From the NCBI RefSeq assembly GCF_963682185.1, contig NZ_OY821667.1, positions 3,175,501 to 3,239,500 of the forward strand: DNA of 64,000 bases, read 5' to 3'. Source of the DNA: an uncultured Cohaesibacter sp. (GTDB lineage: Bacteria > Pseudomonadota > Alphaproteobacteria > Rhizobiales > Cohaesibacteraceae). This document shows positions 15,439 to 31,548 of the stretch, piece by piece. The notes beneath the pieces are model-generated. The model worked only from the letters and a program-made list of their open reading frames with translations. It did no database searches and was not told where the DNA came from. Within the stretch, counting starts at the first letter, position 1, and each line of letters starts with the position of its first letter. The translations under genes were made by a program, and so were the position numbers.

Positions 15439-16086
15439 TCAAACGGCGGTGCGCCACTGTCTGCCCAGATTGGCAGCATTGCGGGCGCGACGTCCGATTT
15501 CATGCCAGTCTTTGGCGCGCACCAGATCAACAGGGGCAATCCAGCTACCACCGATGGCAAAGACATTGTCTTCGATGAGATAATCATCGGCTGTATCGGA
15601 GGTGATGCCACCCGTCGGGCAGAAGGAAATATCGCTCACCGGGCCGGAAATCGCGCGCACCATGGGAACACCGCCCACAATGCTGGCCGGAAAAAGCTTC
15701 TGCTCCATGAAACCAACCTCTCTGAGGGTCATGATCTCGGATAGGGTGGAGGCGCCGGGCAAAAAGGGCCAATCATTGAGCTTGAGGGCCTGTAGCAGCC
15801 TTTCAGATACGCCGGGCGACACGCCGAACCAGCCACCAGCCGATTGGGCTGCGTTGAGCTGCATTTCCGTGAGAATGGATCCGACGCCGATCACAGCGCC
15901 TTCTACCTGATTGGCGATAATTTCGATGGCTCTGAGAGCCTCATGACTGCGCAGCGTCACTTCCAGTACAGGCAGGCCGTTATCGACAAGGCACTGCGCC
16001 AGAGGTTGGGCATCATCGGCATTCTCGATCACAAGAACCGGAATAACCTTTGTTCCCGAAAAAAGCGGGGAGACTTTTGGATGTAT
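15439..16086 (-). CDS. eda: KDPG/KHG aldolase with no ordinary start codon
   Basis: A class I aldolase that cleaves 2-keto-3-deoxy-6-phosphogluconate to pyruvate and glyceraldehyde 3-phosphate. Visible family marks are VLEVTLRS with the catalytic Glu and Arg, the Schiff-base Lys in QKLFPAS, CPTGGI and the IGGSW phosphate site. The homologous N-terminus (KVIPVLVIENADD) extends in frame upstream of the first GTG at 16032, but between that GTG and the upstream stop no ATG, GTG or TTG occurs. An ATA at 16084-16086, six bases after AAGGGA, gives 215 residues, the normal length. Either an AUA start or a damaged start codon is therefore likely. It acts downstream of the hexuronate enzymes encoded above it, but a hairpin at 16335-16365 may separate it transcriptionally. 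Confidence 0.8.
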   Translation of the reverse strand: MHPKVSPLFSGTKVIPVLVIENADDAQPLAQCLVDNGLPVLEVTLRSHEALRAIEIIANQVEGAVIGVGSILTEMQLNAAQSAGGWFGVSPGVSERLLQALKLNDWPFLPGASTLSEIMTLREVGFMEQKLFPASIVGGVPMVRAISGPVSDISFCPTGGITSDTADDYLIEDNVFAIGGSWIAPVDLVRAKDWHEIGRRARNAANLGRQWRTAV

Positions 16087-16334
16087 GGTATATCCCTTAT
16101 GGTTTTCGTTAGAAGGATTTACAATCGAAGCATCATGACAGATGAACTTGATGTCTGATCATCTTCTACCTGTGTAGAAAGATCGAATTCTGTTCCTTTG
16201 ATTGGCTCTTTCTTTGTGGCTTTTGCTGTGTGCGTTTCCTCTTGATTTGAATTTATATCACAATTGAAGCAACTCTGCTGCATTTCCAGAAAATGGCGTT
16301 AATGATTTATCGCATCTTTTTGTTCCAGATATGC
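16087..16334. other. Intergenic upstream region of eda
   Basis: AT-rich spacer between the uxaC terminator and the aldolase gene. It probably contains the aldolase promoter. No TTGGTNNACCAA operator was found here, so eda may be regulated differently from the rest of the locus. Confidence 0.35.
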
Positions 16335-16365
16335 AAAAGTCCGGCGGATATCAATCCGTCGGACT
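16335..16365 (-). terminator. Terminator-like hairpin after uxaC
   Basis: AGTCCGGCGGAT (16338-16349) and ATCCGTCGGACT (16354-16365) pair over 12 positions with one G/T mismatch and a 4-base loop. On the minus strand the stem is followed by TTTTG, so termination may be partial. Confidence 0.6.
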
Positions 16366-16403
16366 ATTTGATTGTGTCATCACAATGCTATCAGCGCCAA
16401 GTC

Positions 16404-17816
16404 TTACTTCTGAGGCAGGAACCAGTTTGCTGCATTCTGGTAGCAAACATCGCGCACAAGCTTGTCGAGCATTTCAGTATCATTTGGCACATGGCCATTT
16501 TCTACCCAGCGACCGACCATCTGGCAGACCAGACGGCGGAAATATTCATGGCGCGGGAAGGACAGGAAGGAACGGCTGTCCGTCAGCATGCCGATGAAGT
16601 GGGAGAAGAGGCCCATCTGTGAAAGCTGGGTCATCTGGCGTTCCATACCATCAAGCTGATCGTTGAACCACCAACCTGAACCGGCCTGCACCTTGCCTGC
16701 AATTTCGCCATCCTGGAAGTTGCCTGCCGTGGAGACGATCACTTCGTTGAAGGATGGGTTGAGGTGGTAGAGAACCGTTTTCGGCAGGTGACCATCGCGG
16801 TCCATTTCACCCATCAGACCGTTCAGTTCGATAGCAATCGGACGGTCATTGATGGAATCGCCGCCCACATCAGGGCCAAGCGATTTATAGAGGCGATGGT
16901 TGCAGTTGCGCACCGCACCGATATGCAGCTGCATGACCAGATCGCGTTCGTAATAGGCTTTGGACAGGTCAACGAACATGTTGGTCTGGAACTGGGCGAT
17001 TTCCAGCTCACTCAGCGCTTCGCCGGAAAGGCGTTTGGCGATGATCGCATCAAGGCTGGCTTCGTCGACCGGTTTGGCATAGCGCAGAACGTCGATGCCG
17101 TGGTCGGTTGCCTTGCAGCCATGAGCCACGAAGTGATCAAGGCGTTCGATCAGCGCTTTCATCAAAGGCGCATAGCTGTCGACAGAATAGCCAACAACCT
17201 TTGCCAGATCGGCAATGAAACCGTCAAAGCCCGGCAGATCGATCTTGTAGGCAGCGTCCGGACGGAAGCTTGGGGCAACGACCATGTCGCTCAGGCTTGC
17301 ATCTTCTGCCATCTGTTTGTGGAAGGCCAGATCATCGCAAGGGGCGTCGGTGGTGCCAACAAACTCAACCTTGAACTGGCGCAGCAGGCCGCGAGCAGAG
17401 TGGCTGTCTTCAGCCAGCATATCGTTTGCCTTTTCCCAGATCTTGTCTGCGGTTTCTGGCGAAAGCAAATCATCGATGCCGAAATAGCGCTGCAGTTCCA
17501 GATGGGTCCAGTGATAGAGCGGGTTTCCGAGGCATTTCGGGACAACGCTTGCAAAGGCGTCGAATTTTTCCCGGAATGTTGCAGCACCGGAGCATTTTTC
17601 TTCCGGAATGCCAGCCCAGCGCATCGCGCGCCATTTGTAATGGTCCCCTGCGAGCCAGACTTCGCCAATCGTGTCCCATTTCTTGTCATTCGCGATTTGC
17701 TCGGGAATGAGATGGTTATGATAGTCAACAATCGGCAGACCAACTGCAACGTCATGATAAAGGTGACGCGCTGCTGCGGTATCCAGCAGGAAATCAGGGC
17801 CTAGAAATGTTTGCAT
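16404..17816 (-). CDS. uxaC: Uronate (glucuronate) isomerase
   Basis: A 470-residue protein, the same length as E. coli UxaC. It converts D-glucuronate to D-fructuronate, or galacturonate to tagaturonate, in the cytoplasm. The N-terminal DYHNHLIPEQIA segment carries the metal-binding HxH-type motif. LYHWTHLELQRYFGI and the C-terminal LTDSRSFLSFPRHEYFRR are signature stretches of the family. It is 97 bases downstream of the mannitol-dehydrogenase-family gene and lies in the leftward operon of the hexuronate locus. Confidence 0.96.
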   Translation of the reverse strand: MQTFLGPDFLLDTAAARHLYHDVAVGLPIVDYHNHLIPEQIANDKKWDTIGEVWLAGDHYKWRAMRWAGIPEEKCSGAATFREKFDAFASVVPKCLGNPLYHWTHLELQRYFGIDDLLSPETADKIWEKANDMLAEDSHSARGLLRQFKVEFVGTTDAPCDDLAFHKQMAEDASLSDMVVAPSFRPDAAYKIDLPGFDGFIADLAKVVGYSVDSYAPLMKALIERLDHFVAHGCKATDHGIDVLRYAKPVDEASLDAIIAKRLSGEALSELEIAQFQTNMFVDLSKAYYERDLVMQLHIGAVRNCNHRLYKSLGPDVGGDSINDRPIAIELNGLMGEMDRDGHLPKTVLYHLNPSFNEVIVSTAGNFQDGEIAGKVQAGSGWWFNDQLDGMERQMTQLSQMGLFSHFIGMLTDSRSFLSFPRHEYFRRLVCQMVGRWVENGHVPNDTEMLDKLVRDVCYQNAANWFLPQK

Positions 17817-17912
17817 GGTTTATTCTCCTGTCATGAGCGATGGACCGCATGAAAATGAAGCCTTCAGATCGATGACCTGAAGGCTCCGTGAAATTGGCAT
17901 CTCTTGATGGTC

Positions 17913-19382
17913 TTAAGAGAGTGCGGCAGCCACAGTCGCCTTTGCACCCGTTTGGACTAAAGTCGCATAGGTTGCTTTGATTCTCGTCACGAAATTTGAA
18001 TCTTGCGACAGTTTTGCAGGGAAAATCGAATCCATTTCCAGAACGCCGTTAATGTAGGCTTCCCAGTTTGGCAGCTGTAGGGCCTTCTGGGCGATCTGCT
18101 CGGCAAGTGGATCGTTGATCGGTGTTGGCTGGCCATTTTCGTCTTCACCGGTCATGAAGCGAAGCCAACCGGCAACACCCAGTGCCAGCAAAGACCAGTC
18201 AGAGCCATTATCCATATGCCAAGCAATGGAGGCCAGCATGCGCTGGGGCAGTTTCTGGCTACCGTCAGAGGCAATCTGCGCGGTCTTGTGTTTGAGCTGA
18301 CTGTTGGAGAAGCGTTTGATCAGCGCATCCGCATAGGCATTCAGATCCACATCTCCCGGCACAGACAGGGTTGGCTGCTGTTCCTTGACCATCAGGGTAT
18401 GGGCAGCTTTCTTGTAATTCTCGTCACCCATGCAGGCGTCGATGGTTTCATAACCACCCAGATATCCAAGATAGGCGAGGAAGGAATGGGCACCGTTCAG
18501 GGTGCGCAGTTTCATTTCCTCGAAAGGCTCAACGTCTGGCACGAACTGTGCGCCGACTTCTTCCCAAGCCGGACGACCCTTGACGAAATTGTCTTCGATG
18601 ACCCACTGACGGAACGGCTCACAAACGATGCCGTTCGGATCTTCCATGCCGCCGAGGGTTTCCTTGATCAGCGCGCGGCTTTCGTCGGTAAGCGCCGGAA
18701 CGATGCGGTCCACCATGGAGCAAGGGAAGGTCACATTCGCCTTGATCCATTTGGCAAGTTCGGCATCCAGCTTTTCAACGAAGCTCGTTACCGCCAACTG
18801 GCACAGCTTGCCGTTGGAGGGCAGGTTGTCCAGGCTAAGAATGGTGAAGCCGTCAAGACCGGCATCGCGACGACGACGCAGCGCTTCCACCAGTGCCCCG
18901 ATGGCCGATTTCGGCGTATGCGGATTTTCAAGGTCATGCTTGATGGCCGGGTTGCTCTCATCCAGCTTGCCGCCTGCCAGGCAATAGCCCTTTTCGGTGA
19001 CCGTCATGGAAACGATGGCAACATCTGGCTCAAGAAATGGCGCAAAGAAAGCATCCATGCCGCCGCGTTCTGGATGCGCGGTTTTGACGATGGAGCCGAT
19101 GATGCGCAGGTTGGAACCGGCATCGCCATGTTCCAGAACGCTGTAAAGATGGTTATTTTCTTCCAGCTGGGCGAAACGGTCCGCTCCGAACAGGATGTCG
19201 CTGACAACGACGCCCCAGTCACTGGCCGGATGCTTCAGAAGGAAGTCCTGATGGTAGCTCATCCAGTGCGCGCGGGCGAAGGCGCCAAAGCCCAGATGGA
19301 TAAGGCGCGGACGCAGACCCTTGCGGTCATAATCGGGCAATTGCGGGTTGCCCGGCGCGTTGAGCAAATCGGAAATGGTCAT
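17913..19382 (-). CDS. uxuB: Fructuronate reductase (mannitol dehydrogenase family)
   Basis: A 489-residue long-chain dehydrogenase that probably reduces D-fructuronate to D-mannonate with NADH. Evidence includes the N-terminal LIHLGFGAFARAHW nucleotide-binding segment, the central PCSMVDRIVPALTD, and the KLRTLNGAHSFLAYLGYLGG motif containing the catalytic Lys/Asn. Mannitol or tagaturonate activity cannot be excluded by sequence alone. Context decides: uxaC follows and uxuA is in the same locus. It begins only 14 bases after the GH31 stop, so translational coupling is likely. Confidence 0.9.
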   Translation of the reverse strand: MTISDLLNAPGNPQLPDYDRKGLRPRLIHLGFGAFARAHWMSYHQDFLLKHPASDWGVVVSDILFGADRFAQLEENNHLYSVLEHGDAGSNLRIIGSIVKTAHPERGGMDAFFAPFLEPDVAIVSMTVTEKGYCLAGGKLDESNPAIKHDLENPHTPKSAIGALVEALRRRRDAGLDGFTILSLDNLPSNGKLCQLAVTSFVEKLDAELAKWIKANVTFPCSMVDRIVPALTDESRALIKETLGGMEDPNGIVCEPFRQWVIEDNFVKGRPAWEEVGAQFVPDVEPFEEMKLRTLNGAHSFLAYLGYLGGYETIDACMGDENYKKAAHTLMVKEQQPTLSVPGDVDLNAYADALIKRFSNSQLKHKTAQIASDGSQKLPQRMLASIAWHMDNGSDWSLLALGVAGWLRFMTGEDENGQPTPINDPLAEQIAQKALQLPNWEAYINGVLEMDSIFPAKLSQDSNFVTRIKATYATLVQTGAKATVAAALS

Positions 19383-19396
19383 GAAAAATCTCCAGA

Positions 19397-21781
19397 TCAG
19401 AATGGCAGCAGAGTGCCGGTTTTATAAGGGGCGCCTGAGACAGACAGCAGGCGGGAATCGCGGGTGGCAACGCTGACCTTGCAGCCTTCAAGGGCCGGAT
19501 CGAACTGGCCGTCATGCTGCCAGTCAAGGTCGAGGGTTGTTGCCGTTTGAGTGACCTTGAAGGTCGTCAGGCGGTGGTTGCCCGAAAGCGCATCGACATT
19601 GTCCACGTCATCTTCATAAGCCTGAGCCTCGAATGTGCAGCTGGCTTCTCCATGCAGCGGATAGATGACGATCTGGCGCAACTGCCCTGCAACAGAACCG
19701 GAGCGTTTTACGCCCGGAGACAGGGTCAGCACGGTGCCGGCCTTGACGAACAGGGGAATGGAGCCAAGGGCAACCGGAACGGTGACTTCCTGACCGCCGT
19801 GGAAATAGTCCCCGGACCAGAAGTCATAATAACCAACCCCGTTATCCGGCAGATAGAGTGTGCGGGTCTTGGCACCTTCTTCCACCACGTTGGCCACCAG
19901 CATGTCGCGGCCGAGGAAGAAATCATCGGTCGGCGCATAGCAGCGTTCGTCATGCTCATGATCAAGGAAGGTTGGACGGATCATTGGTTCATCATCCACC
20001 ACGGCCTTGTAGAGCAGGGTATAGAGATAAGGCAGCAGGGTGTAACGCAGATTGATTGCATTACGGATATGGGCTGTTACCTCAGGGTACATCCATGGCT
20101 CATTGACGGTCTGATCGTCGTTCCAGCTGTGAATGGTGAAACGCGGATGGAAGATGCCGTTCTGAACCCAACGCACGAACAGTTCCGGATCTGGACGGTC
20201 ACCCGAGAAGCCGCCAACATCATGGCCAACATTGTAAAGACCGGAAAGGCTCATGCCGAGGCCCATACGGATGTTGAATTTGAGGCTGTTCCAGTTGGTG
20301 CGGTTGTCACCAGACCAGGTCTGTGCATAGCGCTGGATACCCGGGCAGCCGGAACGAGAGATGAGATAGGCCCGTTTTTCAGGTGCAAACGCAACCTGTG
20401 CATCGTTGGATGCGCGGGTCATGAGAAGAGGCTGAACCGGACGGATCAGATCGATGTCGATCGGATTGCCAAAGCCATCGCACTGGGCCTGACGGTCCCA
20501 GATCTCATATTCGTTATTGTCGTTCCAGGTGGAATTGATGCCGTAATCCAAAAGGGCGGTTTTGACATTGTCGCGCCACCATTTCTGAGTGTCCGGATTG
20601 GTGAAGTCCAGATGGCTACCTTCATCATCCCAGAAGACAGACCGCTCGGCCGCGCCGGTGTCGCTATCCTTGATATAGAGGCCCAGATTGTCCACTTCGC
20701 CATAGCGAGGGTGATCCTGCAGCAGGCAAGGCTTGATGTTTGCGATCAGCTCAAGGCCTGCATCGGCAAAGGCTTTGGCCATGCCTTTGGCATCAGGCAC
20801 CTTGTCCGTGTTCCAGTTGAACACATAGCGTTTTGGGCCAATAGAGGTATAACCGGAAGAAAGCTGGAAGCTGTCGCACGGAATGTCGTGCTCCTTGATC
20901 AGACGCACGAAGCCGAGCAGTTGCTCCTGTGCATTGGGAGCGTCTGTGTAGGACATGGTAGAGCCGGAATAGCCCAAAGACCAACGCGGCAGGAAGGCGG
21001 TGCCGCCTGTCAGCTGCGTGTGGGTCTTGGTCAGCTCAAGAACGGAATCGCCAAGGGCGAAATAGTAATCCAGGTCGCCATCTTCGGCGCGATAGGAGCG
21101 GAATGGCTGGTGATAGTTGTCCAGCTCGTTGCCCAGATCAAACCAGCAAGGCGCCAGGTTGTCATAGAAGAGCGAATAGGACAGGCCGCTTTCAAGGCGG
21201 GTGATCGTGAAGGGCACATGCTTGTAAAGCGGATCGGTGGAGCTTGCATTATAGCCCATCGCATCCAGATTGCGCATTTCAAAGCGGCGACCGGAGCGTT
21301 CCAGCTCACCGGCTTTCTCGCCAAGGCCGTAGAAGCGGTCCGTCTTGGCGCGGCGCAGGAAGTGGCTGTGTGCATGATCCTTGCGGCCCAGCATATAGGC
21401 GCCGGTCGGGCGGTCTTCAGCAATCTGCTGCCATTCATCGCTAGCGCTGCTGCGTCCGTACCAGACAAGGCCCAGCGGTTGGCGAACAACCACTTTCAGG
21501 CAGTCGGTTGCAAGGGTTACGGTGTCATCTGCGGTTTCGCAGGTAAAGGAAGGGCAGGAAAATCCGTCGAGCGAGGCGCGATTGCGGCCTTCGAGGGGCG
21601 CATTGCCCTTGGGGGCAACGGTCCAGCTGCGATCCAGACGATAGCTGCCATCCTTGAGCAGCTGCACGCGGGCCATGCGGTCTTCAAGAATATCGATCTG
21701 CAGGCTGTGCCGCCCTTCGACTTCGAGCTCTACGCCCGTTGCAGTCTGGCTTTTGAACGTCCATTTTTTCAGCTGATACAT
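19397..21781 (-). CDS. Glycoside hydrolase family 31 (alpha-glycosidase)
   Basis: A 794-residue GH31 enzyme. An N-terminal beta-sandwich (about 1-255) precedes the (beta/alpha)8 barrel. The catalytic nucleophile is Asp421 in WNDNNE, and the acid/base is Asp492 in WSGDNRTNW. C-terminal beta-domains follow (about 650-794). There is no signal peptide, so it should act in the cytoplasm on an imported glycoside. Family activities include alpha-glucosidase, alpha-xylosidase and alpha-galactosidase; the substrate is not deducible. Its place between TRAP permease and uronate genes suggests it removes a neutral alpha-linked sugar from a uronate-containing oligosaccharide. GGAGACCTTC precedes the ATG. 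Confidence 0.9.
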   Translation of the reverse strand: MYQLKKWTFKSQTATGVELEVEGRHSLQIDILEDRMARVQLLKDGSYRLDRSWTVAPKGNAPLEGRNRASLDGFSCPSFTCETADDTVTLATDCLKVVVRQPLGLVWYGRSSASDEWQQIAEDRPTGAYMLGRKDHAHSHFLRRAKTDRFYGLGEKAGELERSGRRFEMRNLDAMGYNASSTDPLYKHVPFTITRLESGLSYSLFYDNLAPCWFDLGNELDNYHQPFRSYRAEDGDLDYYFALGDSVLELTKTHTQLTGGTAFLPRWSLGYSGSTMSYTDAPNAQEQLLGFVRLIKEHDIPCDSFQLSSGYTSIGPKRYVFNWNTDKVPDAKGMAKAFADAGLELIANIKPCLLQDHPRYGEVDNLGLYIKDSDTGAAERSVFWDDEGSHLDFTNPDTQKWWRDNVKTALLDYGINSTWNDNNEYEIWDRQAQCDGFGNPIDIDLIRPVQPLLMTRASNDAQVAFAPEKRAYLISRSGCPGIQRYAQTWSGDNRTNWNSLKFNIRMGLGMSLSGLYNVGHDVGGFSGDRPDPELFVRWVQNGIFHPRFTIHSWNDDQTVNEPWMYPEVTAHIRNAINLRYTLLPYLYTLLYKAVVDDEPMIRPTFLDHEHDERCYAPTDDFFLGRDMLVANVVEEGAKTRTLYLPDNGVGYYDFWSGDYFHGGQEVTVPVALGSIPLFVKAGTVLTLSPGVKRSGSVAGQLRQIVIYPLHGEASCTFEAQAYEDDVDNVDALSGNHRLTTFKVTQTATTLDLDWQHDGQFDPALEGCKVSVATRDSRLLSVSGAPYKTGTLLPF

Positions 21782-21978
21782 GAAGGTCTCCCTAGGGCTC
21801 TTTCCCGCTAGCGTGTTTCGGCCAGAAATTGGAATGAGCCGAATTTGAAGGATTTGCAGCAGCTCCTGTTTGCAGGAAATGCTGGTTCTTATTGGGGAGG
21901 CTTTGCGTAACCTGTCTAGAGGTCTGCCAAGCGCTCACCCGCTGCTATCTGACTTGGTGTGTCAGTTGTTTTTGTGGA

Positions 21979-22009
21979 ATGGCGGCGCGCCTTGCAAGGG
22001 TGCCGCCAT
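21979..22009 (-). terminator. Strong intercistronic hairpin between dctM and GH31
   Basis: ATGGCGGC (21979-21986) and GCCGCCAT (22002-22009) form an 8-bp outer stem, with an inner CCTT/AAGG stem. No T-run follows on the minus strand. It may shield the upstream transporter mRNA from decay or attenuate transcription into the enzyme genes. Confidence 0.4.
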
Positions 22010-22030
22010 GGTGTTTGTCAGGCTGTGTGA

Positions 22031-23341
22031 TTAGCCGCCATAGCCAAGGAAGAAGCGCGGCAGGATCAGGGAGAGCTCAGGAATGTAGGTAACCGCCAGA
22101 AGAAGGCCGACCAGCACTGCATAGAATGGCAGCATTGGTTTCAGAACCTTGGAAATGGCGACCTTGCCGACCGAGCAACCGATGAACAGGGCAGACCCAA
22201 CCGGTGGCGTGCAGATGCCGATGCAGAGGTTGAAGGTCATCATGACACCGAAGTGAACCGGATCCATACCCAGATCCTGAACCACTGGCAGGAAGATCGG
22301 GGTAAAAATCAGCAAAGCGGGGGTCATGTCCATGAAGGTGCCGATGATCAGAAGGGCAAGGTTCATGACCAGCAGGATGACGATCGGGTTATCGGAAATC
22401 GCCAGCAGGGCATCGGAGATGTAGAAAGGGATATCCGAGAAGGCCATGGCCTTGGACATGCCGATCGAACAGCCGACCATCAGCAGCACGATGGAAGTGG
22501 TAACAGCCGATTCCAGAATGATCTTGGGCAGATCGCGGATAGAGATTTCGCGATACCAGATCAGGGCAAGGAACAGGGTGTAGACCACAGCAACCGCAGA
22601 GGCTTCCGTTGCGGTAAAGATACCGCCGATGATGCCGCCCATGATGATGATGATCAGGCCCAGCGGCAGGATGGCTGCCTTGGTTTTTTCGCACATTTCC
22701 TGACGGGTTGGTCTTTCTGCCACGGCATAGCCGCGTTTCTTGGCGATGATGCCAGCTACAACCATCAGGCCAAGGCCCATCAGAATACCTGGCAGGTAAC
22801 CGGCAAGGAACAGGGCTGCAATCGAGGTACCACCGGTGATCAGCGAGTAAACGATGAAGGTGGTGGATGGCGGGATGAGCAGCCCGGTCGGGCAGGAGGC
22901 AATGTTGACGGCTGCGGAATAGGCTGGGTCATAGCCCTCCTTCTTCTGCAGCGGGGACATCACACCACCCACAGCAGCTGCCGAAGCAACAGCCGAGCCG
23001 GAAATCGCACCGAACATCATGTTGGCCAGCACGTTACAGTGGGCCAGTGAACCGGGCAGGCGACCGCCAAGGATCTTGGCGAACTCGATGAGACGCATGG
23101 CGATACCGCCGCGGTTCATGATGTTGCCTGCTAGAATGAAGAAGGGGATCGCCAGCAGGGTGAAGCTGTCAAGGCCGGAGGCCATCTGCTGGGCGACGAT
23201 GAAAATCGACTGGTCGAACGACATATCGATCACCATGAAGGTGAACATGGTCGCGATACCGATTGCGAAGGAAATAGGAACGCTGAATGCCATCAGAACG
23301 ATGAAGATCGAAAACAGCGTGATAGTTGCTTGCCATTCCAT
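22031..23341 (-). CDS. dctM: TRAP transporter large permease subunit
   Basis: A 436-residue DctM/SiaM-type membrane protein with about 12 helices. Family marks include FFILAGNIMNRGGIAMRLIEFA near residues 67-88, FGAISGSAVASAAAVG and the LLIPPSTTFIVYSL loop. The C-terminus has PVHFGVMMTFNLCIGICTPPVGSALF. It forms the ion-coupled channel with DctQ, encoded 27 bases upstream, and is served by the divergently encoded receptor at 24456. The genomic setting indicates a hexuronate or glucuronide substrate. Confidence 0.93.
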   Translation of the reverse strand: MEWQATITLFSIFIVLMAFSVPISFAIGIATMFTFMVIDMSFDQSIFIVAQQMASGLDSFTLLAIPFFILAGNIMNRGGIAMRLIEFAKILGGRLPGSLAHCNVLANMMFGAISGSAVASAAAVGGVMSPLQKKEGYDPAYSAAVNIASCPTGLLIPPSTTFIVYSLITGGTSIAALFLAGYLPGILMGLGLMVVAGIIAKKRGYAVAERPTRQEMCEKTKAAILPLGLIIIIMGGIIGGIFTATEASAVAVVYTLFLALIWYREISIRDLPKIILESAVTTSIVLLMVGCSIGMSKAMAFSDIPFYISDALLAISDNPIVILLVMNLALLIIGTFMDMTPALLIFTPIFLPVVQDLGMDPVHFGVMMTFNLCIGICTPPVGSALFIGCSVGKVAISKVLKPMLPFYAVLVGLLLAVTYIPELSLILPRFFLGYGG

Positions 23342-23368
23342 GATTTGGTTACTCTCTCTTCGATCCGC

Positions 23369-23893
23369 TTAGTCTAGGTCGGCTGGGATTGGGTCGGAGC
23401 TTTCATCGCTCTCTTCCCCGCAGTCAGGTGAAAACAGTTCAACGATCAGCGCTGCACAATAGAAGAGCATCATGGCGCCCGAAAAGGGGATCGCACCGTA
23501 GACATAGCCCATCGGCAGGCGAAGAGCCGGGGTCATCTGGCCGGATTCAAGGGTCTTGAACATCAGCTCAAGGCCGCCATAGACCATCACTACGCCAGCG
23601 AAGGCTGCAACAATCAACAATACGGCAACGCGGATATAACGAACCGCTGGTCCGTCGATGATCAAGGTGACAATGTCGATTGCCAGATGGCGCTTCAGGC
23701 CAAGCGTGTAAGCGGCGCCCACAAAAGCGACCCACATAAAGAGGAAGCGTGCGATTTCGTCGGTGGTGGTGCTTGGCGTTCCAAGAATAAAACGCGAGAC
23801 GACCTGCCAGACAACGCAGACGACAAGGATGGTAAAGACCAGGACGGTCAGGGTTCCAAGAACCGCGTTTACCAAGCGAACAGCTTGTTTCAT
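23369..23893 (-). CDS. dctQ: TRAP transporter small permease subunit
   Basis: A 174-residue, four-helix protein of the DctQ family. It contains VVWQVVSRFILGTPSTTTDEIARFLFMW, the conserved Arg/Glu-rich loop between helices (about residues 28-55), followed by KRHLAID. It is the membrane partner of DctM. The open frame extends 44 codons further upstream, but the ATG at 23893 has a GGAG site and starts directly before the first helix. An operator-like TTGGTCGGCCAA lies about 75 bases upstream. Confidence 0.9.
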   Translation of the reverse strand: MKQAVRLVNAVLGTLTVLVFTILVVCVVWQVVSRFILGTPSTTTDEIARFLFMWVAFVGAAYTLGLKRHLAIDIVTLIIDGPAVRYIRVAVLLIVAAFAGVVMVYGGLELMFKTLESGQMTPALRLPMGYVYGAIPFSGAMMLFYCAALIVELFSPDCGEESDESSDPIPADLD

Positions 23894-23966
23894 GGCTGCA
23901 CTCCAATAGCTGTTTGTTCTCAGCTCGAACCAATCGAGCGCGAAATGACTGCCCCTTGGAAGAGAA

Positions 23967-23978
23967 TTGGTCGGCCAA
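23967..23978. promoter_or_regulatory. Probable GntR/UxuR-type operator of the dctQM operon
   Basis: AATTGGTCGGCCAATT (23965-23980) is a near-palindrome whose core, TTGGTCGGCCAA, differs at one position from TTGGTNNACCAA. It sits 74 bases before the dctQ start. E. coli UxuR/ExuR sites have the same TTGGTNNACCAA form, and a FadR/UxuR-type GntR gene lies in this locus. Confidence 0.55.
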
Positions 23979-24240
23979 TTTAGTAAGCGGCCGATTCCCA
24001 GGTTGACAGCAAGGGGTTCAACCAAAAATTGGAGAAGAATTTTTCTCCAGTTGGTCTAGCCACCCGAAATCGAGGGATGCTGATCAGCAGCAAATCAGCC
24101 TGCATTCGTAATGCCTAGAAGAAAAACCCATTATATCAATGATATAGATGGTTCTTGAAAGCGTTTCCTACAAAATGTCCGCAGACTTGGTGTGCCATTC
24201 GGCATCTCTGTTGGCTATACACATCGCTCAAAAAACAAAA
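23979..24240. other. Central part of the divergent hexuronate promoter region
   Basis: No gene is present. A degenerate TTGGTCTAGCCA lies at 24051-24062 and resembles the operator core with mismatches. The rest is AT-rich and must hold the leftward promoter; no convincing -35/-10 pair could be chosen. Confidence 0.3.
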
Positions 24241-24305
24241 TTGGTCAACCAAAATAAAAATTGATTGACAAAAATTTCAAAATGGAGAATTGTTTGGTCA
24301 ACCAA
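24241..24305. promoter_or_regulatory. Paired TTGGTCAACCAA operators bracketing the dctP promoter
   Basis: Two identical 12-base sites, TTGGTCAACCAA, lie at 24241-24252 and 24294-24305, each an inverted TTGGT/ACCAA repeat with a 2-base centre. Their centres are 53 bases apart, about five helical turns, so a looped repressor complex is possible. Between them is a consensus -35 TTGACA at 24265-24270; the -10 about 17 bases later is weak and abuts the second operator. A degenerate third copy, TTGGTTAGACCGA, begins near 24314. Binding by the GntR protein at 27547 is inferred. Confidence 0.65.
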
Positions 24306-24455
24306 AAAGAATATTGGTTAGACCGATCGAGGCGCCTGTGGTCAGCAAATAGATCTGATGGCAAATGTGCTTTGGTTGGATGAATGGCATCTCGCTTTGT
24401 AAGGGCGGGGATGCAAGGCAAACAAACCGACTGAGATTTCATTCGGGAGGGAAAA

Positions 24456-25436
24456 ATGACTCGTAAGCTTTCCATTATTAGTGCTGTCGCTGGTGCAGCT
24501 TTCGCTCTGTCTGCAACTGCAGCAAGCGCTGTTACCCTGAAAATCAGCCACAATAACCCTGAAGATCATCCTCTTCACAAATCCATGTCCTTCTTCGCAG
24601 ACCGCGTTAAAGAGCTGACCAATGGTGACGTCAAGGTACGCATCTACGCAAACGCTCAGCTCGGTACGCAGCGCGAATCCATGGAACTGGTTCAGAACGG
24701 CACGCTGGCAATGGCCAAGTCCAACGCCTCTGAGCTTGAAGCATTCGAAGAATCCTACAGCGCCCTGAACTTGCCATATCTCTTCACCTCCGAAGATCAT
24801 TTCTTCAAAGCTCTAGGTGGTGAAATCGGCGACGACATTCTGATGTCTTCCAAAGACAAGGGCTTCATCGGTCTGACTTACTACTATGAAGGCGCTCGTT
24901 CCTTCTATGCCAACAAGGCCATCAAAACACCGGCCGACCTCAATGGCATGAAAATCCGCGTGCAGCCATCACCATCCGCGATCCGCATGGTTGAACTGCT
25001 TGGTGGCAACCCGACCCCGATTGCCTGGGGTGAACTCTACTCTGCTCTGAAACAGGGTGTTGTTGACGGTGCTGAAAACAACCCGACTGCAATGACCACT
25101 GCACGTCATGGCGAAGTGTCCAAGGTCTTCTCCAAGGACGAACATACCATGATCCCTTCCGTTCTGGTGATGTCCACCAAGAAGTGGGACCGTCTGACCG
25201 AAGATCAGCAGAAAGCGGTTCGTCAGGCTGCGCATGAATCCATGGACTTCCATCGCAAGCTTTGGGCTGACATCGTTTCAAAGGAAATCGAGAAGGCCAA
25301 GACCGATCTGGGTGTGGAATTTGTTGAAGTCGACAAAGAACCATTCATCCAGGCTGTTATGCCGATGCACGAAGAACTGGCTGCCAAGTCCGAACGTCTG
25401 GCTGACCTGATCGAACGCATCAAGGCTGTCAAATAA
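24456..25436 (+). CDS. dctP: TRAP transporter solute receptor, probably for a hexuronate
   Basis: A 326-residue DctP-family periplasmic receptor. The signal peptide (about 1-25) ends ASAV. KIRVQPSP (about 166-173) carries the conserved Arg that grips the substrate carboxylate, and GELYSALKQGVVDGAENN is the family signature. GGGAGGG lies just before the ATG. It feeds DctQM encoded divergently. DctP relatives include D-glucuronate/galacturonate receptors, and the surrounding genes point to a uronate or uronide; whether it binds the free acid or a larger glycoside is open. Confidence 0.92.
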   Translation: MTRKLSIISAVAGAAFALSATAASAVTLKISHNNPEDHPLHKSMSFFADRVKELTNGDVKVRIYANAQLGTQRESMELVQNGTLAMAKSNASELEAFEESYSALNLPYLFTSEDHFFKALGGEIGDDILMSSKDKGFIGLTYYYEGARSFYANKAIKTPADLNGMKIRVQPSPSAIRMVELLGGNPTPIAWGELYSALKQGVVDGAENNPTAMTTARHGEVSKVFSKDEHTMIPSVLVMSTKKWDRLTEDQQKAVRQAAHESMDFHRKLWADIVSKEIEKAKTDLGVEFVEVDKEPFIQAVMPMHEELAAKSERLADLIERIKAVK

Positions 25437-25505
25437 GAGCTGGCTTCAAAGTCAGCCATGCAGTCCGGCAAATGGGGTCCGCTCCCCGCCGGGACTTAAC
25501 TCTCG

Positions 25506-25536
25506 AACATGGCGGGCGTTTATCCGCCATGTTTTT
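25506..25536 (+). terminator. Terminator-like hairpin between dctP and the GH2 gene
   Basis: ACATGGCGG (25507-25515) and CCGCCATGT (25524-25532) form a 9-bp stem followed by TTTT. It probably reduces read-through, leaving receptor mRNA more abundant than the downstream enzyme genes. Confidence 0.7.
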
Positions 25537-25599
25537 CCCGACCCTGACCGGTCATTCCTTGAAGAAGTGCTAGGTTATCTTAATCACAGGAAGTTCCAA

Positions 25600-27414
25600 A
25601 TGGTTCTCGAACGATCTGAATTGGCGGAAAATGCTCTACAGTGCCTTCATGACGAAGCCTATGACGCGCCATACAATCTGCAGAATCTCAATCATGAAAC
25701 CTTGCTCTTTGTCGGCGGTCGCGAAGGCGAGAGTCTTGATGGAGCCTGGAACTTCTGCGTGGATCTGCTGGATACTGGACTTCGTCAAAAATGGTTCGAG
25801 ATGGATCAGATGGATCCTGAAGAGCGCATCGAGCCCTATGACTATGATCCCTATATGGGCGAGCAGGTGGTCGTTCCTTCAAACTGGCAGATGCTGAAAG
25901 AAAAATGGTATTTCTTTGAAGGCAGCGCTTGGTACAGCCGCTCCTTCAATGCTGCAGCCCTTGGTGTGGATGAACGCAAATTCCTGCGTATCGGTGCGGC
26001 GCAGTATGACTGCAAGATTTTCCTCAACGGCGAGTTTCTGGGCAACCACTATGGCGGCTCCACACCTTTCTGCGTCGAGCTGACCGAAAAGCTCCGCGAG
26101 GGAGAAAACTGGCTGATGCTGTGTGTCAACAACTCCCGGACATTGGATCGGGTGCCGATGCGCAACACGGACTGGTTCAACTATGGCGGTGTCTATCGTG
26201 AGGTCGAACTTTACACGACACCCAAAACCTTCATTCGTGATCTCTTTGTCAGCCTCGTACCCGACGGGACCTATAGCCGCATTGCCGTTGAGGCCGTGCT
26301 GGATGGCCCTGATGCCAAGGGTGCGCAGATTGAAATTAAGCTCCCAGATCTCGGTATTAACACAGTCATCGCGTCCTCCCAAGATGGCCTGGCGAAAGCC
26401 GAGATCGAAGCCAGCCCGGAACTATGGTCCCCCTCAACCCCGCGCCTTTATGACGTTGTCGCTCGCCTTGGCGAGGATGAAGTGCGCGACCGGGTTGGCT
26501 TTCGCCAGATTGAGCAGGTCGGTGCAGGCCTGCTGTTGAACGGAAAGCCGCTCTTCCTGCGCGGTATTTCCGTGCATGAGGATGACAAGGTCAAAGGCAA
26601 GGTAACGAGCAAGGAAGATCTGGAGCGTCGCTTCGCGCACGCCAGGGAGCTCAACTGCAATTTCCTGCGTCTGGCTCACTATCCACACCATGAAATGGCT
26701 GCCAAGATGGCCGATGAACTGGGCTTTCTCCTTTGGGAAGAAATTCCGGTCTATTGGGCGATCGATTTCGAAAATCCGGCCACCTTCAAGGATGCGCAGA
26801 ATCAGTTGATCGAACTCATCAAGCGTGATCGCAACCGTGCCAGCGTCATCATCTGGTCCGTTGGTAATGAAAATCCGGATACCGATGCCCGCCTTGATTT
26901 CATGCGTCGCTTGTCAGAAACCGCAAAGCAAGTTGACCCGACCCGATTGACGTCTGCTGCCTGTCTGATCAATCACGCAAAGAAAAAGATCGAAGATCGT
27001 CTGTCGAATTACATCGACGTGATCGGGATCAATGAATATTACGGCTGGTATGAGGAAAACTTCGAAGATCTCGTTGAAATCGGCGTGAACTCTTCTCCTG
27101 AAAAACCGGTCGTTATTTCAGAGACCGGAGCTGATGCCGATATCAGCGCGGCGGGCCCCAAAAAAGGGCTCTTTAGCGAAGCCTATCAGACAGAGGTCTA
27201 CGAAAAGCAGATCGCCACCTTGCGGGAACTCGATTATATCAAGGGTATATCTCCCTGGATCCTCTACGATTTTCGCGTGGAGCGCCGTCAGAATGTCTTC
27301 CAGCGGGGAGGCAACAAGAAGGGGCTTATCGACGCTGACAAGGCAACCAAGAAAGAGGCTTTCCACAAGCTTGCGGCTTTCTACGCCGAGAAGCGGCTGG
27401 AAGGTGAGCAATAA
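25600..27414 (+). CDS. Glycoside hydrolase family 2, beta-glucuronidase
   Basis: A 604-residue GH2 enzyme that should release D-glucuronate from beta-glucuronides. The sugar-binding and immunoglobulin-like domains occupy about 35-310, and the barrel about 310-604. The acid/base is Glu424 in VGNEN and the nucleophile Glu508 in ISETG. The C-terminal GGNKKG (Asn572, Lys574) matches the N-K motif that recognises the glucuronate carboxylate in true beta-glucuronidases, which separates it from beta-galactosidases and mannosidases. It has no signal peptide, so hydrolysis is cytoplasmic. The start at 25600 follows AGGA; an upstream GTG is less likely. uidA-like in function, but the exact substrate is unknown. 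Confidence 0.88.
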   Translation: MVLERSELAENALQCLHDEAYDAPYNLQNLNHETLLFVGGREGESLDGAWNFCVDLLDTGLRQKWFEMDQMDPEERIEPYDYDPYMGEQVVVPSNWQMLKEKWYFFEGSAWYSRSFNAAALGVDERKFLRIGAAQYDCKIFLNGEFLGNHYGGSTPFCVELTEKLREGENWLMLCVNNSRTLDRVPMRNTDWFNYGGVYREVELYTTPKTFIRDLFVSLVPDGTYSRIAVEAVLDGPDAKGAQIEIKLPDLGINTVIASSQDGLAKAEIEASPELWSPSTPRLYDVVARLGEDEVRDRVGFRQIEQVGAGLLLNGKPLFLRGISVHEDDKVKGKVTSKEDLERRFAHARELNCNFLRLAHYPHHEMAAKMADELGFLLWEEIPVYWAIDFENPATFKDAQNQLIELIKRDRNRASVIIWSVGNENPDTDARLDFMRRLSETAKQVDPTRLTSAACLINHAKKKIEDRLSNYIDVIGINEYYGWYEENFEDLVEIGVNSSPEKPVVISETGADADISAAGPKKGLFSEAYQTEVYEKQIATLRELDYIKGISPWILYDFRVERRQNVFQRGGNKKGLIDADKATKKEAFHKLAAFYAEKRLEGEQ

Positions 27415-27546
27415 CAACAAGAAGTCCGAACCAGGACCGTCAGGCTCAGTATGACACAGGTGCCGCCGGTCGGGATCGGCAAGACGCAAAGCGCAGGTGC
27501 TGCACAATTTTCATGTGCTGCCTGCCGTGGCTAGCGAGGGCCAAGG

Positions 27547-28302
27547 ATGATCACGGATACAGGTAAGAGGCGCTATCAGGAAGTTGCCGAAGCGCTGAAA
27601 AAGGAAATGATTGATCAGTCTCTCTCCGTGGGGACGCGCTTGCGGACGGAAAGACAGATCGCTGAAGATTTTGATGTGTCGCGTTCTGTTGTCCGTGAGG
27701 CGATCATCATGCTGGAAATCGAGGGCCTCGTCTCGGTGCGAAAAGGGTCGGGCATCTACATTGAGCGCCTGCCCAATCAATCCGAAAAGAACGCCATTGC
27801 ACGCTCGGATATCGGACCGTTCGAGTTGTTGCAGGCACGCCAGTTGCTGGAAAGCAATATCGCCGCTTTTGCCGCGACCATGGTGACCAAGAACGACATT
27901 CAGCGCATGCAGGAAGCGCTGGACATGGAAATTCAGGCCATCGATTCTGGCAAGGCTGATTATGACGGCGATGAATGGTTTCATCGTCTGATTGCTGAAT
28001 CCACCCAGAATGGCGTCTTGATTGATATGGTCAACGATATGTGGCGCCTCAGAAAAGGTAACCAGATCTGGGATGGCCTGCATGCCCGCATTTTTGACGA
28101 GAGCTATCGCCAGCAATGGCTGGATGACCACCAGCAAATTTTGACGGCTCTCAACCGCAAGGATCCGGGTAAGGCCCGCGACGCCATGTGGAACCATCTT
28201 GAGAATGTGCGCAATACACTCCTGATTCTCTCCGATGTTGAGGATCCAAAGTTCGACGGAGATCTGTTCAAGACGCCCAAGGTCGTCAAGCTGAACAAAT
28301 AA
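27547..28302 (+). CDS. GntR-family (FadR/UxuR-type) transcriptional regulator
   Basis: A 251-residue regulator. The N-terminal winged helix (about 5-75) contains LRTERQIAEDFDVSRSVVREA and the wing VRKGSGIYIE. The C-terminal FCD all-helical domain (about 95-235) binds organic acids in this family. E. coli UxuR and ExuR belong here and recognise TTGGTNNACCAA, the palindrome found three times in the divergent promoter of this locus. It lies between the beta-glucuronidase and mannonate dehydratase genes, so it is the probable local repressor, released by fructuronate or glucuronate. GAGGGCCAAGG precedes the ATG. Confidence 0.9.
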   Translation: MITDTGKRRYQEVAEALKKEMIDQSLSVGTRLRTERQIAEDFDVSRSVVREAIIMLEIEGLVSVRKGSGIYIERLPNQSEKNAIARSDIGPFELLQARQLLESNIAAFAATMVTKNDIQRMQEALDMEIQAIDSGKADYDGDEWFHRLIAESTQNGVLIDMVNDMWRLRKGNQIWDGLHARIFDESYRQQWLDDHQQILTALNRKDPGKARDAMWNHLENVRNTLLILSDVEDPKFDGDLFKTPKVVKLNK

Positions 28303-28409
28303 AAGGTCGGTTGCGCCAAGTTGGTGTGGCGAAGCCGGCAATAAACCCTGCTCCCGATTGCAAATGACCCGCAGTTCGGAGCACCCAAACTGGAAATAAG
28401 AGGCTAAAA

Positions 28410-29567
28410 ATGAAACAGACCTGGCGCTGGTACGGGCCTAATGATCCGGTCACCCTTGACGACATCCGTCAGGCTGGGGCCACCGGCATTGTCACCGCTC
28501 TGCATGAAGTTCCAAACGGCACCGTTTGGAGCCGCGAAGCGATTGCCGAGCGCAAAAAGATCATTGAAGACAAGGGACTTGTCTGGTCTGTTGTTGAATC
28601 CATCCCGCTGCATGAAGACATCAAGCTTCAACGCGGCGACTACAAGACCCTGATTGCAAACTGGGGTGAATCCCTGCGCAATCTGGCCTTGGAAGGGGTC
28701 AACAACATTTGCTACAACTTCATGCCTGTTCTGGACTGGACCCGGACCGATCTGGCTTGGGAATTGCCAACCGGCGCGCGCTGCCTGCGTTTTGATGCAG
28801 ACCGTTTTGCAGCCTTTGACCTGTATATTCTCGAACGTGCAGAAGCACAGGATGAATATACAGACGAGGAAAAAGCCTCGGCAAAAGCCTGCTTTGATGC
28901 GATGACAGAAGATGACAAAAATCTTCTGGTGCGCAACATGATTGCTGGCCTGCCCGGTTCTGAAGAGAGCTACACCATCGAGCAGTTCCGTGCCCAGCTC
29001 AATCTCTACAAGCAGATTGATGCGGACAAACTGCGCGAGCATCTGGCCGAGTTCCTGAACACGGTTCTGCCGATTGCCGATGAAGTGGGTGCGGTCATGG
29101 CCATCCATCCGGATGATCCACCCCGTCCGCTGTTTGGTCTGCCACGTATCGTTTCCACCGTAGAAGACATGCGTGCCCTCAGGGCCATCAACCAGAGCCC
29201 GGCCAATGGCTTTACCCTGTGCACTGGTTCCTACGGTGTGCGTGGAGACAATGACCTCACGGCAATGATCGACGAATTCGCCGACTTCATTCACTTCTTC
29301 CATCTGCGTTCCACTCAACGCGACGGCAAGAGCTTCTATGAAGCCAACCATCTGGAAGGCGACGGCAATCTGGTTGAAGTCATCAAGCACTTCAAGAGCG
29401 TGGAAGACAAGGTGGGCAAATCGATTCCGTTCCGCCCTGACCACGGTCATCAGATTCTCGATGATCTGACCCGCCGCTCCAACCCCGGCTATCCGGCAAT
29501 TGGACGTTTGAGAGGCCTTGCCGAATTGCGCGGCGCCATGGCCGCTCTTGGTGGCAATCTAGACTAA
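28410..29567 (+). CDS. uxuA: Mannonate dehydratase
   Basis: A 385-residue UxuA (E. coli, 394). It dehydrates D-mannonate to 2-keto-3-deoxy-D-gluconate, with a divalent metal. The N-terminus [16 protein letters not shown] is highly characteristic, as are [17 protein letters not shown] near the middle and FRPDHGH near the C-terminus, which carry metal and substrate ligands. The gene is 107 bases after gntR and closes the rightward transcription unit, followed by a long-stem terminator. Confidence 0.97.
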
Positions 29568-29630: not shown

Positions 29631-29945
29631 ATTTGCTCTCCCTTCAGGCGCAGGTCTATGCGCTTGCTCCTTGTTTATCCAAATTTTTTCAAGGCCTTGC
29701 TTCTTGGTGCGACCGGAAGTAGCGAGCTTTAGCATGTGAATGGCCGCTGAAGCGCTTGCTCTTTTAGTCAATTTTTACTATGCAAGCTGGGTCAGTTCCT
29801 AAGAAACAAAAGCTGATAAATTGTTCGTTTGCTCAATGATTCTTGTAAAATTCCTTCATTTTACTTGCGGATTCGGGACCAAACGAATTAGCTTTTGACC
29901 AATAAATGGAATAAGCCTTTTGGGAACAACAGGGAGATATTTTCT

Positions 29946-31532
29946 ATGATGAAAAATTCTATTGCAGCCCTCCTGCTGGCTGGAGTGTGCGCACTTCCGC
30001 TGGTTGCGACGTCTGCTTCTGCAGAGGTTGTCTATAACCGTGGTAACTCTGCTGATCCGGAAACCCTTGATCAGCACAAAACCCAGACTGTGTATGAATC
30101 GCACATTCTGCGCGATCTTTATGAAGGCCTTCTGGCCTATAGCGCAGACGGCAAATGCGTTGCCGGTGTGGCCAAATCCTGGGATGTCTCCGAAGACGGT
30201 CTGGTTTATACCTTCCATTTCCGCGATGATGCAAAATGGTCCAACGGTGATCCAGTGGTTGCTGGCGATTTCGTCTATTCCCTGCGCCGTATTGAAGATC
30301 CAGCAACGGCTGCTCAATATTCCACCATCATGTATCCGATTGTGAACGCCGAGAAAGTCAACAAGGGCGAACTGCCCAAGGAAGAACTTGGCGTAAAAGC
30401 GATCGACGATGCCACTCTGGAAATCACACTGAATGCGCCGACACCGTATTTCCTGGGTCAGCTCTGCCATCAGTCCGCATTGCCAGTGCATCCGGCAAGC
30501 GTTGAAAAATATGGCGAGGATTTCTCCAAGCCAGGCAACATGGTTTCCAACGGTGCCTTCACTCTGGCTGAGTTCGTTCCGAACAGCCATGTGAAAGCTG
30601 TCAAGAATCCGATGTTCCATGACGCTGCAGACGTGAAAATCGACGCTGTCATGTATTACCCAACCGAAGATCGTGGGGCTGCTCTGCGCCGCTTCCAGGC
30701 TGGCGAACTGGATTCCAACAACGATGCTCCGGTCGAACAGGTCGACTTCATGCGGGAAAATCTGGGTGACCAGTTCCGCGTAGCGCCTTATCTGGGCACC
30801 TACTATTACGCAGTGAACACCACTGAAGATAAGCTGGCCGACCCGAAAATCCGTCGCGCCCTGTCCATGGCGATTGATCGTGAATTCATCGCCGACGACA
30901 TCTGGGGTGGCACCATGCTGCCGGGCTATTCGCTCGTTCCTCCCGGAATTGGCAACTATGGCGAACCTGCCTATGCCGACTTCAAGGATATGGACCAGTT
31001 CGACCGTGAAGACGCTGCAAAAGCCATTCTGGAAGAAGCCGGTTACAGCGAAGACAAGCCGCTCGAAGTGGAAATCCGTTACAATACGTCGGAAAACCAC
31101 AAGAATACGGCTGTTGCCATTGCTGACATGTGGAAACAGATCGGTGTGAAAACCACGCTGCTCAACACCGATACCAAGACCCACTATGCGAACTTGCGTG
31201 AACATGCGCCGTTCGACTTCGCACGCGCTGGCTGGATCGGTGACTATTCCGACCCGCAGAACTTCCTGATGCTTGTTGAATCCGATTCCGGCTTCAACTA
31301 TGCCCAGTGGAAGAATGCGGACTATGATGCACTGATGGACAAAGCTGCCATGACTGTGGATCTGGATAAACGCGCTGAAATTCTCTTCAACGCTGAAAAG
31401 ATCTTCATGGAAAATCAGCCTTATTTGCCGCTGCTTTACTACAGCTCCCTCAGCCTTGTCTCCGACAAGCTGCATGGCTGGGAAGATAACCTCCTGAACG
31501 TCCATCCTTCACGTTGGATGTCCAAGGACTAA
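29946..31532 (+). CDS. oppA: Oligopeptide ABC transporter substrate-binding protein
   Basis: A 528-residue SBP_bac_5 family protein. The signal peptide (about 1-27) ends SASAEV. Family segments include NRGNSADPETLDQHKTQTVYE at the mature N-terminus, the LRRFQAGELD region and the FDFARAGWIGDYSDPQNFL stretch that contacts the bound peptide in OppA proteins. GGGAGAT precedes the ATG at 29946; the frame is open 17 codons upstream without a ribosome binding site. It is followed by its own terminator and then oppB, so it is probably made in excess of the permease. Confidence 0.92.
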   Translation: MMKNSIAALLLAGVCALPLVATSASAEVVYNRGNSADPETLDQHKTQTVYESHILRDLYEGLLAYSADGKCVAGVAKSWDVSEDGLVYTFHFRDDAKWSNGDPVVAGDFVYSLRRIEDPATAAQYSTIMYPIVNAEKVNKGELPKEELGVKAIDDATLEITLNAPTPYFLGQLCHQSALPVHPASVEKYGEDFSKPGNMVSNGAFTLAEFVPNSHVKAVKNPMFHDAADVKIDAVMYYPTEDRGAALRRFQAGELDSNNDAPVEQVDFMRENLGDQFRVAPYLGTYYYAVNTTEDKLADPKIRRALSMAIDREFIADDIWGGTMLPGYSLVPPGIGNYGEPAYADFKDMDQFDREDAAKAILEEAGYSEDKPLEVEIRYNTSENHKNTAVAIADMWKQIGVKTTLLNTDTKTHYANLREHAPFDFARAGWIGDYSDPQNFLMLVESDSGFNYAQWKNADYDALMDKAAMTVDLDKRAEILFNAEKIFMENQPYLPLLYYSSLSLVSDKLHGWEDNLLNVHPSRWMSKD

Positions 31533-31548
31533 GCCGGTTAAAACCACG

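Follow-up and report, generated by a model that had tools for sequence, protein, structure and literature searches.

Introduction

What does a bacterium take up when its genes for a tripartite ATP-independent periplasmic (TRAP) transporter lie directly beside genes for two glycosidases that seem to stay inside the cell? Small free acids are the usual substrates assigned to TRAP carriers. The question is raised by a ten-gene locus at positions 15439-29567 of a 64,000-nucleotide stretch of DNA (the window; genome positions 3175501-3239500) from an uncultured Cohaesibacter sp., whose 5.39 Mb genome is a single contig. The locus encodes a DctPQM transporter, a glycoside hydrolase of family 2 (GH2) and one of family 31 (GH31), the enzymes UxaC, UxuB and UxuA, a GntR-type regulator, UxuR, and the aldolase Eda.

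Here, we propose that this is a UxuR-controlled locus for glucuronides and not only for free glucuronate, with TRAP import, cytoplasmic splitting and a pathway to 2-keto-3-deoxygluconate (KDG), a reading that we consider somewhat probable from comparative sequence analysis. The DctP receptor would bind a small glycoside bearing a glucuronate group, and the DctQM permease would bring it in whole. Hydrolysis would then take place in the cytoplasm, by GH2 on beta-linked and by GH31 on alpha-linked forms. The freed glucuronate would pass through UxaC, UxuB and UxuA to KDG, which would be phosphorylated by KdgK from another locus and then split by Eda, either the copy in the window or a second one.

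Results

Two glycosidases that are probably cytoplasmic

Where do the two glycosidases act? A sequence-only reading of this DNA held that neither has a signal peptide, and no hydrophobic N-terminus was found in either by a simple hydrophobicity score over the first 45 residues (not a trained signal-peptide predictor, and applied to guessed starts). The window proteins score 0.12 (GH31), 0.14 (GH2) and 2.06 (DctP), and the N-termini over the threshold number 8/124, 0/77 and 70/74 among their respective orthologues. Both enzymes are most likely cytoplasmic; if so, their substrates must therefore be carried in.

Conservation of the glycosidases with the transporter

Are the glycosidases regular partners of this transporter? 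Because a first sample of loci had been selected by GH31, a search based on dctM was made in 87 genomes of one related family, with at most 20 candidates scored per genome, and gave 61 places in 46 genomes (E <= 1e-120). The orthologous dctM genes form a group of 48 loci at about 72% identity or more (46 over 72.0, two just under), and GH31 is present in 44 and GH2 in 42 of these. Where dctM is only 50-68% identical, a distant GH31 (38-40%) occurs in two of 12 loci (L273 and L274) and GH2 in none. L144, also one of the 61 places, has GH31 and no GH2. The nine largest clusters of neighbouring genes are GH31, dctM, uxuB, dctQ, uxuR, GH2, uxaC, dctP and uxuA; next come a major facilitator superfamily (MFS) gene, a LacI-type gene and reading frames that by their coordinates are antisense to named genes. 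No eda is found among the 40 largest clusters, and it stands beside this gene set in few loci. GH31 starts 3-119 nt beyond the dctM match in the 42 loci measured; in the window the distance is 249 nt. This linkage lends the idea of TRAP import followed by cleavage inside the cell, already put forward in the sequence-only reading, a comparative basis; for the algal polysaccharide origin suggested there, we have evidence neither way.

GH2 is lacking in L238, L242, L252, L255, L258 and L267, of which L238, L255 and L267 run into a contig end on the side of GH2. With three GH2 sides cut and transporter-side counts of 44 and 42, the idea of GH31 as the more constant glycosidase was dropped.

Some loci weigh against our proposal. 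Four dctM orthologues are without GH31: L256 and L279 keep GH2, and L258 and L267 have neither glycosidase, the sequence of L267 covering the side where GH31 would be expected. In addition, L266 (dctM 68%, receptor 54% identical) has uxaC and no glycosidase. The last case suits an alternative in which only free glucuronate is carried and the glycosidases are co-regulated passengers, serving glycosides that enter by other carriers or internal compounds. It is also in keeping with this alternative that the cited part of PMC5507952 treats UxuPQM as a carrier of hexuronates, and that the nearest solved receptors are DctP proteins (see below). What speaks against it is the 3-119 nt between dctM and GH31, the presence of another type of carrier beside GH31 in relatives (below), and the separate uronate locus of this genome, which has its own receptor, 68% identical to 4x8r. 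On balance, we hold the passenger explanation to be improbable.

In four of the 12 loci with a distant dctM (L268-L271), uxaC stands with a uxuB homologue at 25-28% identity, no closer than the tagaturonate reductase encoded in the second uronate locus of the genome (27%). L273 (208-9574) and L274 (1201-10583) hold another TRAP system together with the distant GH31, a gene of the fucose-isomerase family and one that looks LacI-like by eye. L258, L267 and L279 (genomes G498 and G508) are second dctM copies in genomes with another, GH31-linked copy, and two of these three have none of the other glycosidase or uxu genes nearby. Within the available sequence, dctQM with GH2, and mostly GH31, occurs without dctP in Pseudovibrio (L087, L089, L100 and L101) and likewise in L253, L254, L256, L257, L259-L265 and L279; the receptor may lie elsewhere. 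Class-wide sampling gave no DctP above 40% identity outside this genome, and GH2 matches of 48-55% in five genomes.

Conservation seen from GH31

The view from GH31 comes from a search of named genomes, and the counts that follow concern the best 80 of 592 confirmed relatives (57-97% identical). GH31 lies with two or more of the TRAP genes in 45/80, 36 of the 45 also having GH2; in 29/80 it lies with an MFS gene, identified by a motif, and 6/80 have neither type of carrier. A scan of three MFS proteins from these 29 gave TIGR00893, an acid-sugar carrier family, as the best model for all three, below its cut-off. At least one homologue of uxaC, uxuB or uxuA lies within 10 kb of GH31 in 52/80, those of L042 and L082 being 28-49% identical. 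The gene order in Pragia is MFS, GH31, uxuB, uxaC, as if the MFS protein stood in for the TRAP system. On these gene neighbourhoods, the GH31 clade is tied to uronate genes or to acid-sugar-type carriers.

The enterobacterial locus L068 (7311-12364) combines a LacI-type regulator, an acid-sugar-type MFS gene and a GH31 of the same clade, without uronate genes nearby. Similar units are seen in L055, L065, L066 and L096; the contig of L055 is labelled Chryseobacterium, has an enterobacterial gene order and is probably mislabelled or contaminated.

Other TRAP-glycosidase pairs in the same genome

Is there a parallel closer to hand? At L142 3967-14332 (genome approximately 2.912-2.922 Mb), TRAP-like genes (24-36% identical) directly precede a GH31 that shares 55% identity with YihQ, the sulfoquinovosidase of E. 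coli, and scores 1001 bits against the YihQ-type model NF007746 (cut-off 553). At L218 6483-10850 (genome approximately 5.370-5.375 Mb), a GH4 comes after TRAP genes, and its top match among solved proteins is the alpha-galacturonidase LplD (344 bits). The cytoplasmic location of these two enzymes was judged by eye. With three TRAP systems in one genome, each beside a glycosidase for acidic glycosides, the simplest reading is therefore intact glycoside import. The L142 and L218 pairs are closer parallels than RhiABC, the precedent named in the sequence-only reading, and import of the intact glucuronide by the TRAP system appears to be the best reading of the window locus. The surroundings of L142 look by eye like a sulfoquinovose operon.

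The receptor and its ligand

Can the ligand be read from the receptor? The profile matches of the three subunits (PF03480, PF04290 and PF06808; Table 1) place the transporter in the DctP type. The solved chains nearest to the window receptor are DctP receptors, which we take to be uronate receptors, a point that counts against a glycoside ligand. It is only 34-38% identical to the four that were aligned, and the ligand is therefore not readable from sequence; the identity of the imported compound is something we infer. With 4x8r the window receptor shares 38% identity, against the 68% of the receptor from the other uronate locus. An alignment of 72 orthologues has HNNP-HP-HKSM, RVQPSPSA-RMVELLG and ENNP-AL in common. 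The triplet that follows the Asn pair is WPS, IPS or EMS in the four solved receptors and in that of the other uronate locus, PTA in the window receptor and that of L273 (beside a distant GH31), and PTS in the GH4-linked receptor. PTA or PTS is a hint only, because L266, which is without a glycosidase, has PQA.

GH2 as a predicted beta-glucuronidase

The best solved relative of GH2 is the beta-glucuronidase 6ncy (604 bits), followed by 7vqm (440 bits), by name the beta-galacturonidase AqGalA. According to the part of a 2025 subfamily study that we cite, an NxK motif, which recognises the C6 carboxylate, together with an Arg in loop 8 and a Tyr in loop 6 marks most GH2 beta-hexuronidases (PMC12243196). 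The NKK carboxylate motif reported from the sequence-only reading is indeed there, at N583-K585 (numbered from the GTG), and 74/77 orthologues have NRK, NHK or NKK. The catalytic Glu pair is E435 and E519, recognised by simple patterns in 69/77 and 74/77 orthologues.

Might the substrate unit be galacturonate instead of glucuronate? AqGalA is among the GH2 relatives, and UxaC acts on both acids, as is well established. However, UxuB and UxuA are enzymes of the glucuronate branch and recur in these loci, and the tagaturonate reductase and a gene of the altronate/galactarate-dehydratase family are placed in the other uronate locus. The uxuB product scores 161 bits against the tagaturonate reductase model. 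A galacturonate unit is thus highly improbable, and from the uxuB-uxuA pair, which argues for glucuronate, we infer the latter as the GH2 substrate.

GH31 as a candidate alpha-glucuronidase

What is the role of GH31? The protein has the domains PF13802, PF01055 and PF21365, with the nucleophile D421 and the acid/base D492 present in 81/81 aligned rows, and its AlphaFold2 model has a predicted local distance difference test score (pLDDT) of 90. It belongs to a 22-row clade (support 100/100) apart from the YihQ-type and YicI-type rows, in a tree with long branches elsewhere. We know of no alpha-glucuronidase activity in GH31. Among the papers listed by a literature search, titles and the beginnings of abstracts showed mainly enzyme inventories and no GH31 alpha-glucuronidase, which does not show absence from print. 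Among the other alpha-glucuronidase families, GH67 and GH115 are absent from the genome; one GH4, the LplD-like one, was seen, and no genome-wide GH4 search was made.

One option is that the TRAP system imports glycosides and GH31 is an alpha-glucosidase or alpha-galactosidase, which would free a neutral sugar from an alpha-glycosyl-glucuronate and leave glucuronate for UxaC. The nearest solved enzymes, FjDex31A dextranase, glucosidase II and the alpha-transglucosylase Agd31B, act on neutral glucose by their entry names, and the best NCBIfam model is the alpha-glucosidase MalA (291 bits, cut-off 800); these matches weigh against a glucuronidase. Moreover, an anionic disaccharide would equally need an acid-sugar carrier. 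The first barrel loop points the other way. Loop position 308 is Asp or Glu, an acid that binds a neutral sugar, in YicI and in seven other distinct, distant GH31 rows, Ser in the window protein, Ser or Gly in sister rows, and Gly in 4/4 sulfoquinovosidase-type rows. A non-acidic residue here fits an acidic group at C6. We regard the neutral-sugar explanation as possible but rather unlikely. Comparison of folds by Foldseek, in which the AlphaFold2 model comes closest to the dextranase, glucosidase II and the alpha-transglucosylase, does not decide the specificity.

A second loop residue, R318, is invariant in 81/81 GH31 rows. It is also found in nine sister proteins (38-45% identical) and in one GH31 of 28% identity, and no uxu/uxa matches were seen in the eight regions fetched around the nine sisters, one of them a short contig only. 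R318 is therefore not a marker of glucuronate, and its use as a clean one was dropped. Two alignments pair it with YihQ R301, while a larger one has a Met of YihQ in that column. We take R301, W304 and Y508 of YihQ to be its sulfonate contacts, and the columns of W304 and Y508 are Phe in 81/81 rows. The spread of R318 and the two Phe columns likewise tell against the glucuronidase assignment. This assignment therefore rests mainly on context, together with the loop around residues 308-318, and we see the case for and against the window GH31 being an alpha-glucuronidase as about evenly balanced. A sulfoquinovosidase identity was rejected, given 164.5 bits against NF007746 (cut-off 553), the Phe columns and the separate clade.

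Regulator and operator

How is the locus controlled? The sequence-only reading saw divergence around one operator region; the two arms part at the dctQ-dctP gap, and this gap has TTGGTCAACCAA palindromes. In the whole genome the pattern TTGGTNNACCAA occurs at four places, two of which are in this gap, and a reversed control pattern at ten; it is therefore not enriched genome-wide. What is telling, as far as pattern searches go, is only the doubling in the gap and the conserved place. The comparison covered 70 non-identical loci in which dctP (55% or more identical) and dctQ diverge. One or more palindromes lie inside the gap in 52 of them, and 62/68 palindromes of these loci fall in the gap, which makes up 22,699 of 1,421,534 bases (1.6%). 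Scanning all 140 loci gave 99 palindrome sites, against 1 for the reversed pattern. Of the two further genome palindromes, one is within a PfkB-domain gene, presumably iolC-like by its length, and the other, at 1678155, has no tie to uronate genes by eye. A GntR/FCD regulator with putative palindromic operators before its targets fits a UxuR regulon, with the regulator itself below the cut-off of the Uxu model.

KDG kinase and aldolase

Can the cell use the KDG that the pathway would yield? The sequence-only reading listed KDG kinase as missing. It is absent from the locus, but PfkB proteins from 21 of 23 genome places (two weak ones were left out) were compared with E. coli KdgK and gave homologues at 1568813-1569700 (44% over 302 residues) and 3404877-3405785 (39%). 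The notion that the kinase is lacking was thus rejected, and the KDG from the window locus is therefore probably usable. The first homologue scores 326 bits against the NCBIfam KdgK model (cut-off 400) and has as neighbours eda, a tagaturonate reductase, a galactarate/altronate-dehydratase-family gene, KduI, uxaC, a uxuA homologue and TRAP genes of its own. A second eda copy is in the other uronate locus (L217). The eda of the window has no ATG: its frame is conserved upstream to an ATA at 16086-16084 (minus strand), where Cohaesibacter marisflavi (L027, 15696) has ATG. The GTG listed as its start (16032) is 18 codons further downstream, within the first conserved stretch.

Organisation of the locus

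The ten genes form two divergent arms, eda, uxaC, uxuB, GH31, dctM and dctQ on the minus strand and dctP, GH2, uxuR and uxuA on the plus strand. Each matches its named family (Pfam, NCBIfam), which bears out the glucuronide-to-KDG gene set of the sequence-only reading (Table 1). Probable real starts are 23893 for dctQ (an internal Met) and 25600 for GH2 (an internal Met, in line with the starts of GH2 orthologues). The nearest named locus is that of C. marisflavi; each of the ten proteins shows 96-100% identity to it across the parts that match, and we conclude from this that the genome is that of a close relative. No match reaching the gathering score was obtained in an RNA-family scan. Beyond uxuA, window positions 29895-33917 hold by eye a peptide-type ABC transporter (a solute-binding protein and two permeases).

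Table 1. Genes and predicted operators of the locus, in window coordinates.
Feature	Position	Strand	Evidence
eda, 2-keto-3-deoxy-6-phosphogluconate/2-keto-4-hydroxyglutarate (KDPG/KHG) aldolase	15439..16032	-	PF01081 192 bits, residues 2-181, profile from position 16; start uncertain
uxaC, glucuronate isomerase	16404..17816	-	NF002794 598 bits, above cut-off 387
uxuB, fructuronate reductase	17913..19382	-	NF011611 best, 548 bits, below cut-off 603
GH31 alpha-glycosidase, probably cytoplasmic, predicted alpha-glucuronidase	19397..21781	-	PF01055 299 bits; D421 nucleophile and D492 acid/base by alignment
dctM/uxuM, large TRAP permease subunit	22031..23341	-	PF06808 400 bits, TIGR00786 447 bits
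dctQ/uxuQ, small TRAP permease subunit	23369..24025	-	PF04290 101 bits, domain from residue 67
Operator palindrome, UxuR-type, TTGGTCAACCAA (predicted)	24241..24252	.	Pattern search; conserved place
Second operator palindrome, TTGGTCAACCAA (predicted)	24294..24305	.	Pattern search; conserved place
dctP/uxuP, TRAP receptor, hydrophobic signal-peptide-like N-terminus	24456..25436	+	PF03480 273 bits
GH2 beta-hexuronidase, predicted beta-glucuronidase, probably cytoplasmic	25567..27414	+	PF02836/02837/00703
uxuR, GntR/FCD regulator	27547..28302	+	NF007588 (Uxu operon regulator) best, 242 bits, below cut-off 442
uxuA, mannonate dehydratase	28410..29567	+	TIGR00695 553 bits, above cut-off 199.6

Discussion

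In light of the proposed import of glucuronides, what might their natural source be? Glucuronic acid diacylglycerol (GADG) is an alpha-linked lipid of plants, algae and marine bacteria under phosphate starvation. One idea is that the GH31 clade is a new, family-31 type of alpha-glucuronidase whose main natural substrate is alpha-glucuronosyl-glycerol from deacylated GADG; we consider this doubtful. No lipase was recognised among the conserved neighbour clusters, which were named by eye. In the cited part of a sea mesocosm study, GADG was the most abundant non-phosphorus lipid under phosphate starvation (PMC4796936). Were the idea true, the locus would be the carboxylate twin of the sulfoquinovosyl-glycerol pathway, whose YihQ-like GH31 adjoins TRAP-like genes in this very genome.

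A conserved permease gene directly followed by the gene of a cytoplasmic glycosidase suggests that part of the TRAP family carries glycosides. Should GH31 prove to be an alpha-glucuronidase, the activity would, to our knowledge, be new to family 31, and proteins of marine alphaproteobacteria and enterobacteria that now score as alpha-glucosidase-like could be given their correct names. What becomes of glucuronic acid lipids in the sea could then be tested as well.

How does the locus compare with known systems? The uid/gus system of E. coli consists of a glucuronide carrier and a GH2 beta-glucuronidase, with import of the intact glucuronide and hydrolysis by GH2 in the cytoplasm. The window locus, as proposed here, shares both features and differs in having a TRAP system in place of a one-protein carrier, an additional GH31, and uronate catabolism within the same locus. 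With the systems that join UxuPQM to UxaC, UxuB and UxuA, it has in common the gene families, a GntR regulator and the pathway to KDG. Unlike them, it has two recurrent, probably cytoplasmic glycosidases, and its receptor, as described above, departs from the four solved ones in overall identity and in having PTA after the Asn pair.

For strain HL-91, a single sentence in PMC5507952 speculates that glucuronides are taken up and hydrolysed by a cytoplasmic "LfaA glucosidase", an idea that resembles ours in that imported glucuronides would be hydrolysed in the cytoplasm and feed glucuronate to the cell; it differs in that the cited part names neither an enzyme family for LfaA nor a transporter, and makes no link to TRAP. 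Finally, GH31 sulfoquinovosidases are described as gateway enzymes in the cited part of PMC10755693, and in the YihQ pathways, as proposed for the window locus, an acidic glycoside is cleaved inside the cell by a GH31. The window GH31, however, belongs to a different clade from YihQ, and the group that it is predicted to recognise is a carboxylate rather than a sulfonate.

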